DNA from: Scardovia wiggsiae F0424
GTDB taxonomy: Bacteria; Actinomycetota; Actinomycetes; Actinomycetales; Bifidobacteriaceae
DNA: 64,000 nt
Reading direction: 5' to 3'
Assembly (NCBI RefSeq): GCF_000269605.1
Contig: NZ_AKCI01000001.1
Coordinates: 1,426,001 to 1,490,000, forward strand
The position numbers and the translations under genes were made by a program. Below are positions 17,949 to 24,217 of the stretch, one piece after another (positions within the stretch are counted from its first letter, which is position 1; every line of letters begins with the position of its first letter). A model generated the notes under the pieces. The model was not told where the DNA came from and searched no databases. It worked only from the letters and a program-made list of their open reading frames with translations.

Positions 17949-20239
17949 ATGGCGTCAGAACAGACGGAAGGGAAGGGGGTCCTGCAAACAGGAACAGCAG
18001 TGCGGAAAGCAAGCAGGGCAACAGGCGGAAAAGGAAGGTCCTGCTTATTGTGGTCCCTCTGCTTTTAGCGCTTGCGGCAGCCGCAGGGCTTGCTGTAGCA
18101 TACCGGATCGGTATGCGGCAGCACAATGGGCCGCAGGGTACGCAGACATCCCGCATAGCGCGCGGCAGCCATAGCGCACGCGGTGATAACTCCAATCCTT
18201 CTGCTTCGCCCGGTACTGACGGGCGGGAAGGCAGCGATGCCGGCAGCTCCGGACGTGTAAACAGCAGCGGCAAAGGTACCGGCAGCGATGCCGGCGGCGA
18301 TAACAGTATCGAGGATTTCCCCGGCACGGATGTGTACAAGCCGTATATCCCTTCAAACAGTCCCCGCGCGCCGAAGGATGCTGAACGCGGGCAGGGTGCC
18401 GGCAGCACTGCAGCCTCCGACGCAGGCCCCTCCTCTGCGGCAGGCAGAAAGCCCCGGTACGGCAGCTACGTTAAACTGACCTTTGTTGATCAAGCTGAAC
18501 GGAATGGGAAAACCCTGCCGAAGGTCGTTAACGGCGAACTTACGGTCAGCAAGGACGATGTCCCGAATGCATACGGTATCGACACAGAGATCTTCGTGAA
18601 CCGTAACGGATTCCGCAACACAGAGATCCGGGTAAAAGTGCCTTTCTATGCTGAGGCAAGCCATGTCCATGTTTCGGCACAGGATTATCTGAGCAACACT
18701 GCCGCGCAGGTAGCGCTGACCGGTGCTTCAAGCGATATCCATCAGATCACTTTCGCCGACTACCTGAGCCAGCTCAAGCCCCATGGTGCGCAGATATCAG
18801 TCAACGGGACAGAGGTAAATAGCCCTGTTACCGCTGTCGATACTAAAAAAGCTGAGGTAACGGTAAAGCTGCCTGGGAACAGGCATATTTCGGATCTGTA
18901 TATGCAGGTGCGCGGCGCAAAAGAATATATCCTGCGCAACAGTACCTTGGATGATAGCAATGCGCAAAAATATAAGTTTGCTTACGACAGCGGCACAAAT
19001 ACACTGAGATTCTCTGTTGACCCTCTTGACCGTGACTGCGACATACATACGGCTGTCAAAGACGGTGCTATGCCTGACCTGAAGAAAGCAGATATCTCTG
19101 TAGGGTTCGGCAGGGATCATCATGCCAGGTTCAGAGAGCTGCGGGTCGATAATACGAAGCAGGCGGTGGATGCCGGGAATTCGGTGAAGCTGAAACCCGG
19201 AAAGCACGTGTTTACTTTGTATTTCCGTGAACCTTTCCGCGGGAAGATCAAGGAAGTTGTCGTTACCGACCGTGAGCATCGTACAAACCTTGTCCGCAGA
19301 GGGGCGCTGTTTGATGTCGAGGAACAGAAAAACGGATATTACTATTATCTTGGGGCGCTCCTGATAGGGACTGAGCTTCAGTCTGATTCCACGATTGACA
19401 TCGTGTATGAAGACGGGCCGGATTCTCCGGCGCAGGGCCGCGGGCAGGACGGTCTGCAGGGGGATCAGGATGCTTCCGGCCGCGATAAACGGGAGGAGAG
19501 GCCCAGTCCCGGCCCCAACTCTTCAGATACCGGCTCCGCTGACCCTGACGCTATGAAGGAAACCAACAACCTTAAGGATAAATATCCGGCAGTATTCCTC
19601 GAAAGCCCAGGCCTTCTGGCGGTCAACTCCGGTATGACGACTGAGGGCGACATGCTTGACGTGACCGGATTCATCGGGTATGTCAAAGATGATGACGAGA
19701 TCAAAGATATCAATGTCTATCTTGTGGATAACCGGGGAAACATGGTCTCAGACCCGGTCCATCTGACAAAAAATGATGTGACGAAGAAAGCCATCAGCCG
19801 AAGGGCCGGCAGCGCGGCTTACTCGGGTAATGCTTACCTGTTCAGTACCAGGCTGAAAATGACGGCATTCAATATCAATGTCAAAGTTGAAGTTACGACC
19901 AGGAAAGGTGAAACTGCAAGCATCGTCCGGCGTACGTTCTTCGACAAACTGGCTCCGGAAGTGGAATATGAAGTCCATGACCGCGCACCTGATTCTGATT
20001 CCGTGCGCCTGACCGTCAGGTCAACTGACAACTCCCTTAAACTGGGTCTGTATCAGGACGATTCCCTGATCGTAGATGAGGATAAGACCGTTATTTCGTT
20101 TGCGGATGGCGGGGTAGAAGTGGTGAAGGAAATTGTTGTGCCGCTGAAGGCGGGGCAGAATACCATCACCCTTAAAGCAACCGACCTGGCGAATAATCAG
20201 ACGGTTAAGCGGCTTTATGTCTATCGTACAGGCGAGTAA
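17949..20239 (+). CDS. Membrane-anchored surface protein with Ig-like domains; apparent N-terminal frameshift
   Basis: The main open frame encodes about 729 aa from a GTG at 18050, but this cuts into a signal-anchor. Upstream, an ATG at 17949 reads MASEQTEGKG and is then out of frame by one base. A -1 shift or one extra G in the G5 run at 17975-17979 joins it to a residue stretch ending NRRKRKVLLIVVPLLLALA, a well-formed signal-anchor. The full product would be about 763 aa. The exterior has a low-complexity Gly/Ser/Asp linker, a middle region with beta-rich segments, a second linker (about residues 460-505), and a C-terminal Ig-like part ending LKATDLANNQTVKRLYVYR. No sorting motif. Function unknown. 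Confidence 0.65.
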
Positions 20240-20611
20240 CTAATCCATATAGGTATTAGGGATAAAGTATAGGAAAGAATGTCAGTAATACGTACTATCA
20301 CTTTTACTTTATGTGCAAGACGACTAACGATTAATAGCGGATTGAAATGTTTCACTCTTTATCATCTAGCACGGCAAGGATCATAATTATTTTTGCGGCA
20401 TCTTGAGCATCCAGATATGGTAATGATACTTCGTCAGTTGTTGCAGTTAGTTTCACTTTCTCGTGGTGGAATAATCGAGAAACCGGACTGGAAGTTTTTG
20501 TAATAAGCATTATTCGTTTTAATAGTCTGATTAGCTAAGGTATCTTTAGTATTTAGTAACGAATTTGTCATTTTGCATATCTTGGTATGAAAGAAATCGC
20601 TGCATAGAACA
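20240..20611. other. AT-rich intergenic stretch at the left edge of the bacteriocin island
   Basis: The base composition turns AT-rich right after the surface-protein stop and stays so to about 23,130, suggesting a horizontally acquired segment. Apart from the short frame at 20352-20510 and an overlapping 45-codon frame starting further upstream on the minus strand, nothing is recognised. The two overlapping frames could be a decayed gene. Confidence 0.45.
20352..20510 (-). CDS. Small hypothetical protein, possibly a gene remnant
   Basis: A 52-codon frame (starts MLITKTSSPVSRLFHHEK, ends MILAVLDDKE) just downstream of the bacteriocin ABC operon on the same strand. It has no clear ribosome site. 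A second frame (starts MTNSLLNTKD) overlaps its beginning, so the pair may be a frameshifted remnant. The amino-acid composition looks protein-like. I do not recognise it. Confidence 0.3.
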   Translation of the reverse strand: MLITKTSSPVSRLFHHEKVKLTATTDEVSLPYLDAQDAAKIIMILAVLDDKE

Positions 20612-21517: not shown

Positions 21518-22236
21518 GGTTTATATGTCCTTAATCGAATTATTCCCAGTAACTGTATCGCAAAAGACCATATGAACAGCCCAATAACACCCCAATACCA
21601 ATGCAGTTGTTGTGAAGAAGTTATCCATATAGTTAGGGAAGCTGGAGTATATTGTAGGAAATGCTGTATAAGAAGCGGATTGATAGCTCCAGATAATGCA
21701 GCTAAGATAGGCAATCCCCACATGATTCCGAGATATACAAATATTGTTCCTGCGGTTGAAATAATTGTGAACCCGAGTCCTGATCCGATGAGTGAATAAG
21801 TAATTGCTAGCAAAAGTATATTTAAGAGGCTAAAAAGCATGTTCTGCAAAGGGACGAAACTTAACTGCAACTTTCCAATTACCACGATAGCTTCGATAAT
21901 ACACCAGTTTATCAAGTAAGCAAGGATGAGAGATGCTACAGAGACTATTGATACGGCGCTGATTCTTCTCAATTGAATTTTGAGTTTATTCGGATTCGCT
22001 AGTATGTCAAGCACTATAGTGCCGTGTGAGAAATAACCTGTTATGGCGACTACCGATAGAATTCCTATTAAAAATGGGGTAGTGTCATCTCCAGCGGTAA
22101 TCGGTATAAGAATACTCGTTCCAGGTTTGCTAGTAAATAGAATCCCCAATCCGAGCGTTAGCTTAAGGCATATAGTAAAAACCGCAATGATCCTAGTTGA
22201 TTGCAGAGCGAGTAATTCTCTTAGATGAGTTGTCAC
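21508..22236 (-). CDS. ABC-2 type permease of the bacteriocin immunity/export transporter
   Basis: A multi-span membrane protein of 242 aa from a GTG at 22236. I prefer this start because AGGGAT lies 7 nt upstream and it follows the previous stop (22262). The open frame extends in phase to 22314, which would give 268 aa and overlap the 83-aa gene. About six hydrophobic segments can be seen. It is coupled to the ATPase by a 10-nt overlap. Sequence-level resemblance to known Lan/Lnq permeases cannot be judged by eye; the assignment rests on topology and context. Confidence 0.75.
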   Translation of the reverse strand: MTTHLRELLALQSTRIIAVFTICLKLTLGLGILFTSKPGTSILIPITAGDDTTPFLIGILSVVAITGYFSHGTIVLDILANPNKLKIQLRRISAVSIVSVASLILAYLINWCIIEAIVVIGKLQLSFVPLQNMLFSLLNILLLAITYSLIGSGLGFTIISTAGTIFVYLGIMWGLPILAALSGAINPLLIQHFLQYTPASLTIWITSSQQLHWYWGVIGLFIWSFAIQLLGIIRLRTYKPWR

Positions 22237-22261: not shown

Positions 22262-22513
22262 CTATTTATACTGGTTTTTATTATTTTGGTGATGTTTCGA
22301 AATTGCTGCGCCAATCAACAGTACGATGGTCCCTATAATTAATGACACAACACCAACTAATATACTTTGGGCAAGGAGTATTTCTGAGTGGGATGCGTTT
22401 GTCTCTCGCGTGACATCATCGGTGACTTGGCCTGTTGCATACCACATAAGGAGTCCTGATAATATAGTGAAAACTATCGCTGTAATCCATGCTGGACGAG
22501 ATTTGAAGTTCAT
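22262..22513 (-). CDS. Small two-span membrane protein of the bacteriocin locus
   Basis: An 83-aa protein with membrane spans at about residues 8-26 and 48-70, joined by a short hydrophilic loop (DDVTRETNASHSE) and ending in a basic tail (KHHQNNKNQYK). Its ATG follows AGAAAGG. It begins the operon with the permease and ATPase and is a good candidate for a dedicated immunity or accessory protein. Such small proteins accompany many class II bacteriocins, but no specific family is recognised. Confidence 0.75.
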   Translation of the reverse strand: MNFKSRPAWITAIVFTILSGLLMWYATGQVTDDVTRETNASHSEILLAQSILVGVVSLIIGTIVLLIGAAISKHHQNNKNQYK

Positions 22514-22580: not shown

Positions 22581-22663
22581 CAGCTATTAATATATCAATA
22601 TTCAAGACGGCCTACTTTACTCTTACCGTAAAAACACCATCCAGAGAATGTGTATAAAAACAA

Positions 22664-22714
22664 TCTGCTACAGCTGTTAGTCAATTTTACTTTAAATGTA
22701 ATAGCTGTAGCAGA
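22664..22714 (-). terminator. Terminator/attenuator directly after the bacteriocin gene
   Basis: TCTGCTACAGCT and AGCTGTAGCAGA form a perfect 12-bp stem (27-nt loop) beginning 15 bp after the bacteriocin stop. On the minus strand it is followed by TTGTTTTTATA. This fits an intrinsic terminator that keeps bacteriocin mRNA short and abundant relative to the immunity genes. Confidence 0.75.
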
Positions 22715-22728
22715 TAGAGAATCAAAGT

Positions 22729-22890
22729 TTATCGGATTCCCAAAAGTCGTTTGATTTGCTTAATGACCCAGTCAATTGCCTGTCCTGCTCCTATCCAGCG
22801 AAGAACAGTCCCTCTATGGGCCCAAGCCCACTGTACAGCTCTTGCGCCGTACCTTGCGAGTATGCTTAAGAGTCTGAAAAATGCACCCAT
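22729..22890 (-). CDS. Leaderless bacteriocin, lacticin Q/aureocin A53 type
   Basis: A 53-aa cationic peptide missed by ordinary gene length cut-offs. It begins MGAFFRLLSILARYGARAVQ, contains WAWAHRG at 21-27 and AGQAIDWV at 35-42, and ends KRLLGIR. As I recall lacticin Q, it has the same length and the same YG.KAVQWAWA.KG and AGQAIDWV.. core, with most Lys replaced by Arg. There is no leader or double-glycine site, so the translated peptide itself should be active. It has seven Arg, two Lys and one Asp (net about +8) and four Trp. Members of this class disrupt membranes without a docking protein. The ribosome site AGAAAGGA is 8 nt before the ATG. A terminator follows, then the membrane/ABC operon. 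Confidence 0.9.
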   Translation of the reverse strand: MGAFFRLLSILARYGARAVQWAWAHRGTVLRWIGAGQAIDWVIKQIKRLLGIR

Positions 22891-22914
22891 TTCTTATATC
22901 CTTTCTTAATTTGT

Positions 22915-22950
22915 CTTACTGGGGCCAGTATCAATACCGGTCCCAGTAAG
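22915..22950 (-). promoter_or_regulatory. Stem-loop in the bacteriocin mRNA leader
   Basis: CTTACTGGG and CCCAGTAAG pair around an inner imperfect stem, 25 bp upstream of the bacteriocin ATG and just before its ribosome site. It could stabilise the mRNA or regulate translation or read-through. No T run follows. Confidence 0.5.
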
Positions 22951-23161: not shown

Positions 23162-24217
23162 ATGACCGAAACAGATGGGCCAAGCATGGATAATAATGCC
23201 GAGGCGGCAGATAGCCCTGTTGCCGGCGGGCATAGCCCCGGCAGCGTATCCGGCAAGGCTGGCAGTCCCGGCAAAGTGTTTGAAAAGATGCGCGGCAAAG
23301 TAGTGCTTGCTGCTACGCCTATAGGAAACACTGCCGACGCCTCGTACCGGCTTGCAGCCCTTATAGAGAATGCGGATATTATTGCGGCGGAGGACACCCG
23401 CAGGCTGTATGATCTGGCTAACCGTATGGGTGTGCACGTTAGCGGGCAGGTTGTTGCATACCATGACCATAACGAGCGCGGCAAGGCAGATCCGCTTCTG
23501 GACCGTGTGCAGGAAGGCGCAACCGTACTTGTGGTTTCTGATGCCGGGATGCCCACGATCAACGATCCGGGGCTTGCTATTGTCCGGCGTGCGATAGCCC
23601 GCGGCCTTTCTGTTACCTGTGCCCCCGGCCCTTCGGCGGTGCTGGATGCACTGGCGCTGTCAGGGCTGGCCACTGACCGTTTCTGTTATGAAGGCTTTCT
23701 GCCCCGCAGGCATAACGAACGGCTGAAAGCACTCCGTGCGCTTAAGGCAGAAACGCGGACGATCGTGTTCTATGAGGCCCCGCACCGCATCCGTGAGTCG
23801 ATGGATGACCTTTTCAGCGTGTTCGGTCCGGGGCGCTCAATGGCTCTGGCCCGTGAACTGACGAAAGATTATGAGGAAGTCCGCCGCGGTACGATCGCAC
23901 AGATCCGTCAGACTGTAACGGATGATCCGCCTCGTGGGGAGATAGTCCTGGTCATCGCCGGGGCAAGTGCTGAGGAGGCGGCACAGGTTACCGGGCAGGT
24001 TTCGCCGGCTGCGAGTGCTGAGGGCCTCGCACGGGAAGCTGTCCGTTATTCCGAAATGCATAATGTGAAAGTCAAGGATGCTATCGTCCGTATTGTTCAG
24101 GAGCATCCCCTCCCGGACGGTTCATTGCCTAACCGGAAAAAAGTGTATGCCGCAGTACTCGCCCTCAAGGATGTGGGAGCAGAAGATACAGGACCAGAGG
24201 GCATAAAGGGCGCGTGA
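23162..24217 (+). CDS. rsmI: 16S rRNA (cytidine1402-2'-O)-methyltransferase RsmI
   Basis: A 351-aa SAM-dependent tetrapyrrole-methylase-fold enzyme that methylates C1402 in the ribosomal decoding centre. Family motifs are visible: VLAATPIGNTADASYRL (about residues 48-64), ADIIAAEDTRRL, VVSDAGMPTINDPG and the EAPHRI segment. The first 40 residues are a low-complexity extension absent from most homologues, so a start at an internal Met (MRGKVVLAATPIGN, residue 43) is possible. However, the ATG at 23162 follows a GATAGG-type site. It borders the AT-rich bacteriocin island and faces the LRV/AbiEi-like pair. Confidence 0.93.
   Translation: MTETDGPSMDNNAEAADSPVAGGHSPGSVSGKAGSPGKVFEKMRGKVVLAATPIGNTADASYRLAALIENADIIAAEDTRRLYDLANRMGVHVSGQVVAYHDHNERGKADPLLDRVQEGATVLVVSDAGMPTINDPGLAIVRRAIARGLSVTCAPGPSAVLDALALSGLATDRFCYEGFLPRRHNERLKALRALKAETRTIVFYEAPHRIRESMDDLFSVFGPGRSMALARELTKDYEEVRRGTIAQIRQTVTDDPPRGEIVLVIAGASAEEAAQVTGQVSPAASAEGLAREAVRYSEMHNVKVKDAIVRIVQEHPLPDGSLPNRKKVYAAVLALKDVGAEDTGPEGIKGA

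Follow-up and report, generated by a model that had tools for sequence, protein, structure and literature searches.

A small gene cluster beside rsmI

In the 64-kb stretch of the Scardovia wiggsiae F0424 genome that we analysed (the window), we detected a 53-codon gene on the minus strand that runs from an ATG at 22890 to a stop ending at 22729, with genes for a small membrane protein and an ABC transporter downstream of it (Table 1). Its product is MGAFFRLLSILARYGARAVQWAWAHRGTVLRWIGAGQAIDWVIKQIKRLLGIR, and on the plus strand this interval is interrupted by an internal stop. The earlier note on this DNA had placed the gene at exactly these coordinates and had described a ribosome site, a terminator and an adjacent membrane/ABC operon, all of which we recovered. 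These genes occupy an insert with a GC content of about 0.34–0.43 over 20.2–23.2 kb, against 0.51 for the whole window, flanked on one side by rsmI (23162–24217) and on the other by a gene for a 729-aa protein (18050–20239). The latter gene, on the plus strand between a mannosyltransferase gene and the insert, encodes an N-terminal hydrophobic segment, matches no Pfam family above threshold, and is missing from the corresponding site in both sister species. The S. wiggsiae F0424 genome is a single contig of 1,550,817 bp, compared with 1,797,862 bp in S. inopinata JCM 12537 and 1,890,857 bp in Parascardovia denticolens DSM 10105; all three strains come from human dental caries (PMC5540593).

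Table 1. Features of the peptide gene cluster, with positions in the 64-kb window
Feature	Position	Strand	Evidence or remarks
Near-perfect palindrome, 36 bp	22915..22950		Repeat search, RNA folding, genome-wide count
Ribosome-binding site AGAAAGGA	22899..22906	-	Upstream of the peptide ATG; read from the sequence
Leaderless bacteriocin core peptide gene, 53 codons	22729..22890	-	NF033881, PF11758, identity to lacticin Q, model matches to 2n8p, 6sif and 2n8o
Terminator-like hairpin, 17-bp arms followed by TTGTTTTTA	22663..22715	-	Repeat search and folding; between the peptide and transporter genes
Small membrane protein, 83 residues, two hydrophobic segments	22262..22513	-	ORF, ribosome site GAAAGG
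ABC-2-like permease, 242 aa	21508..22236	-	GTG start at 22236, ribosome site AGGG
ABC transporter ATPase, 301 aa	20612..21517	-	Profiles; 36% identity to Corynebacterium jeikeium pKW4, 55% to P. denticolens
Remnant of YdbS/DdE-like bPH_2 protein, C-terminal half, first part missing	20355..20522	-	tblastn, shuffles, alignment
Putative remnant, start of YdbT/DdF-like bPH_2 gene, about 20 first codons recognisable	20221..20355	-	tblastn, gene order, junction

The small membrane protein is probably an accessory or immunity protein; its matches to NCBIfam and Pfam profiles all fell below threshold, and no recognisable homologue occurs in the clusters compared. Beyond it, the permease and ATPase genes provide an adjacent, dedicated ABC transporter. 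The longest permease ORF opens at a TTG at 22314, though the GTG given in Table 1 is the probable start, and the protein resembles the ATPase-adjacent permeases of C. jeikeium pKW4, Curtobacterium and P. denticolens; a plasmid search returned no relatives of it. The best family for the ATPase was the lantibiotic-protection ABC ATPase TIGR03740, at 184.5 bits under a cut-off of 309.75, so that it is related to this subfamily rather than a member of it. Against defence-system profiles, the ATPase gave generic ATPase matches only and the core peptide gave none.

Directly upstream of the peptide ribosome-binding site, in the leader between it and rsmI, lies the palindrome, which folds as RNA at -23.6 kcal/mol (z -6.4) and is present in a single copy genome-wide. 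Its role is presumably regulatory, as a regulator-binding operator or an mRNA hairpin; the leaders of the Curtobacterium and C. jeikeium genes have no comparable hairpin. Directly past the stop codon comes the terminator-like hairpin, which a consensus-terminator pattern scan misses, its loop being longer than 8 nt. In Curtobacterium and C. jeikeium, too, the core gene is followed by strong hairpins, and the lactolisterin BU core gene also has a terminator directly after it (PMC6249370).

An aureocin A53/lacticin Q family peptide

The core peptide matched both NCBIfam NF033881 (the profile for class IId bacteriocins of the aureocin A53 family; 78.5 bits, E 2e-22, cut-off 27 bits) and Pfam PF11758 (65.6 bits, E 3.5e-18, cut-off 25 bits), with both matches spanning the full peptide length and exceeding the curated cut-offs. 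Its top PDB sequence match was lacticin Q (2n8p; E 2e-19, residues 1–53), followed by epidermicin, aureocin A53 and, weakly, BacSp222. The S. wiggsiae peptide and lacticin Q are 55% identical across all 53 positions without gaps, in agreement with the 29 of 53 matches that the earlier note had given, and family key positions are conserved. There is no leader peptide: the alignments to lacticin Q and epidermicin start from the first residue, and the ribosome-binding site adjoins that ATG. The peptide is cationic, with a charge of about +7.6 and a pI of 12.0, and contains four Trp; as had been noticed beforehand, Arg replaces most of the Lys, with 7 Arg beside 2 Lys where lacticin Q has 8 Lys and no Arg. 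A structural model built from seven related peptides (pLDDT 88) placed helices at residues 2–11, 16–24, 26–34 and 39–50, which predicts a compact four-helix, saposin-like fold. The sole significant or near-significant fold matches of this model were lacticin Q, epidermicin and aureocin A53 (2n8p, 6sif and 2n8o; TM 0.75–0.84, Z 7.8–9.8). Profile matches, sequence identity, the predicted structure and the surrounding genes thus all support membership of the lacticin Q/aureocin A53 family. The earlier note had proposed a lacticin Q-type leaderless bacteriocin in a bifidobacterial genome and had set a profile search as the test; the host does belong to Bifidobacteriaceae, and the similarity to leaderless bacteriocins lies far above the cut-offs.

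Comparison with known systems shows which features are shared. Lacticin Q itself (Lactococcus lactis QU 5; lnqBCDEF) has the same length, the same number of Trp residues and the four-helix fold predicted for S. wiggsiae, and a two-part ABC transporter adjoins its gene as well; it differs in its lower pI (10.1), and the S. wiggsiae system differs in its actinobacterial host and decayed accessory PH genes. The closest relatives we found, in three Curtobacterium genomes (60–62% identity), are also Arg-enriched peptides of 53 residues with an adjoining permease-ATPase-PH block, but these loci have transporter genes that diverge from the core gene, an intact PH gene, and a core peptide with Lys instead of Trp at position 23. 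Plasmid pKW4 of C. jeikeium shares with S. wiggsiae a hairpin 3' of the core gene and the order small membrane protein, permease, ATPase, YdbS-like and YdbT-like PH downstream of the peptide, at identities of 36% for the ATPase, 19% for the permease and only 35% for the peptide; unlike the S. wiggsiae cluster it is plasmid-borne, its PH genes are intact, and an extra ORF immediately precedes the gene for the small membrane protein. Compared by published description, Bifidobacterium tibiigranuli likewise has a lacticin Q-like core peptide with an ABC transporter, but its operon includes a PH-domain protein (PMC11580447). The lactolisterin BU cluster also has four genes (core, ABC ATPase, permease-like accessory and immunity protein) and a terminator after the core gene, but it differs in gene order and immunity protein and lies on a Bacillota plasmid (PMC6249370).

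The peptide family was present in 1 of 189 Bifidobacteriaceae genomes, S. wiggsiae F0424 (one strain of the species), so the search for bifidobacterial homologues that the earlier note had suggested recovered only the genome from which the peptide came. It was again the sole match among 396 sampled Actinomycetota genomes, and the family is therefore rare in Actinomycetota. Six plasmid relatives were found at 35–42% identity, including those of Lactiplantibacillus plantarum (42%), Parageobacillus (39%), Staphylococcus epidermidis (37%) and C. jeikeium. Phage records and viral contigs contained no relative of the peptide, and a phage or viral origin was dropped on this ground. The suggestion of an undescribed actinobacterial bacteriocin overstates the novelty: Hourigan et al. 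(2024) described 97 core peptides resembling aureocin A53 in Actinomycetota, one of them from a Bifidobacterium tibiigranuli assembly with 49.1% identity to lacticin Q, and found two synthetic actinobacterial peptides active (PMC11580447). The main text of that paper does not name Scardovia, and we found no publication linking Scardovia with aureocin A53. The S. wiggsiae peptide is new, then, and its kind is already known, leaderless bacteriocins in Actinomycetota having been published in 2024.

Remnants of PH-domain genes and the sister loci

As read from the sequence, the S. wiggsiae cluster is truncated, with its PH-domain genes reduced to fragments. The YdbS-like remnant lies just 3' of the ATPase gene and matched the S. 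inopinata protein at a tblastn E of 1e-9 over the whole window, and the score of its alignment to the C. jeikeium protein was reached by 0 of 1000 shuffles. It is also the best place for the C. jeikeium YdbS-like protein in both the window and the genome (genome E 0.018). The match to YdbT-like proteins is weaker, with a tblastn E of 0.001 obtained within the segment only; the frame there begins VKHFNPLLIVSRLA, where the compared YdbT-like proteins have MKSFHPLMIISRLV. Taken with gene order and the junction, this weak match suggests that the segment is probably the start of a YdbT-like gene. At the PF03703 threshold, no intact bPH_2 protein was found in the S. wiggsiae F0424 genome, while 65 of the 189 Bifidobacteriaceae genomes have matches, those of both congeners included. 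The YdbS/YdbT-like accessory feature of the family is thus represented in S. wiggsiae by fragments only (20221–20522). This is not decisive for family membership, because the lactolisterin BU cluster has no described PH protein (PMC6249370), but it does mean that production of the peptide is not to be taken for granted.

The sister species carry other parts of the same gene set. In S. inopinata the corresponding site, between rsmI and a protein O-mannosyltransferase gene, holds two bPH_2 genes in the same orientation, with products of 178 and 409 aa, and we found neither the peptide nor an ABC transporter there; this pair of PH genes (locus L017, 8676–10438) persists without the peptide or ABC genes. 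In P. denticolens the site is empty, with rsmI and the mannosyltransferase gene about 200 bp apart, and a permease, an ATPase (55%) and YdbS-like and YdbT-like genes lie elsewhere on the chromosome, without a peptide. The permease is split there across two overlapping frames (L025, 5086–5803), which suggests a frameshift. Another bifidobacterial genome (G012; L038, 1879–3587) encodes relatives of the ATPase (50%) and of the permease (27%) but neither a peptide nor PH proteins; the pair is possibly an orphan immunity transporter.

The ancestral operon probably comprised genes for the peptide, small membrane protein, permease, ATPase, YdbS-like PH protein and YdbT-like PH protein, as in C. jeikeium pKW4. 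The simplest reading is a single six-gene operon type that was lost piecemeal, and differently, in the three sister species. Because the transporter proteins (39–55% identity) are less alike than rsmI products (71–74%), repeated acquisition of parts is a possible, less simple history.

Proposed export and immunity without PH proteins

Characterised relatives differ in what they need to leave the cell. Lacticin Q forms huge toroidal pores without a receptor, its secretion depends on lnqBCDEF, and LnqEF alone confers minimal immunity (PMC4155820). Deletion of either PH protein, DdE or DdF, traps enterocin DD14 in the cell, which it poisons (PMC8657885). Lactolisterin BU, on the other hand, functions with three helpers, one of them an immunity protein and the others an ABC ATPase and a permease-like protein (PMC6249370). 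Set against one another, the export needs of lacticin Q and enterocin DD14 and the arrangement of lactolisterin BU mean that export in S. wiggsiae could be lost or could be lactolisterin-like. The ABC pair is intact and immunity through LnqEF is known, and S. wiggsiae should therefore still be protected.

With somewhat better than even confidence, we read the 53-codon gene as a bacteriocin core gene, its product being a single-peptide leaderless (class IId) member of the aureocin A53/lacticin Q family, with an ABC pair that most likely both exports this peptide and protects the producer without PH proteins. By analogy with characterised relatives, the peptide would be active as translated, with its formyl-Met kept. 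Its face of Arg and Lys may bind the anionic membranes of Gram-positive neighbours, where it would open receptor-free toroidal pores. The permease-ATPase pair, being LnqEF-like, could expel the peptide from the producer's own membrane and so give at least minimal immunity. Export by this pair in place of the PH proteins seems the most likely arrangement, with reduced or lost secretion nearly as likely.

The main alternative is that PH-dependent export was lost, so that the peptide is no longer secreted and its gene is silent or decaying, while the ABC pair is kept as immunity to related bacteriocins of oral neighbours. We regard this as a real possibility, though short of an even chance. The fragmentary PH genes, the genome-wide lack of a bPH_2 protein (PF03703) and the dependence of enterocin DD14 on PH proteins for export (PMC8657885) all speak for it, as do the peptide-less partial clusters of relatives (PH alone in S. 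inopinata, ABC with PH in P. denticolens, ABC alone in G012), and the strong 5' hairpin could mean repression. Set against this, the peptide ORF, ribosome-binding site and terminator are intact and family key positions are conserved, and selection would quickly remove an actively toxic peptide that the cell could not export. Intactness of the ORF is not decisive, since a frame of 159 nt may escape neutral disruption for a while: in a neutral simulation at 0.05 substitutions per site, the peptide ORF alone stayed open at a frequency of 0.57, and all four ORFs did so at about 0.01. Four open frames beside collapsed PH genes mildly favour function and are supportive only.

It is very improbable that export is helped in trans by PH-like or other products of chromosomal genes outside the cluster; divergent PH proteins may escape the PF03703 profile, but no candidate was found, PF03703 matches are absent genome-wide, and the C. 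jeikeium YdbS-like protein finds its best genomic match in the remnant itself, beside the ATPase gene. That the frame is no gene and resembles bacteriocins by chance or composition is, for all its shortness, effectively ruled out by full-length profile matches at E 1e-18 to 1e-22, gap-free 55% identity to lacticin Q, the ribosome-binding site and terminator, and syntenic transporter genes.

Returning to the reading of a functional leaderless bacteriocin, we propose, tentatively, that S. wiggsiae secretes and tolerates the peptide with only the small membrane protein and the ABC transporter, after natural loss of the PH proteins. If this is true, the PH export step would be dispensable or replaceable in an aureocin A53-type system, which bears on the unsettled question of how leaderless bacteriocins leave the cell. 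S. wiggsiae and its relatives form a natural series in which PH genes were lost with peptide and ABC genes kept, PH genes were kept with peptide and ABC genes lost, or ABC and PH genes were kept without the peptide. As a candidate antimicrobial, the peptide, which comes from an oral species associated with caries, is short and accessible by chemical synthesis.
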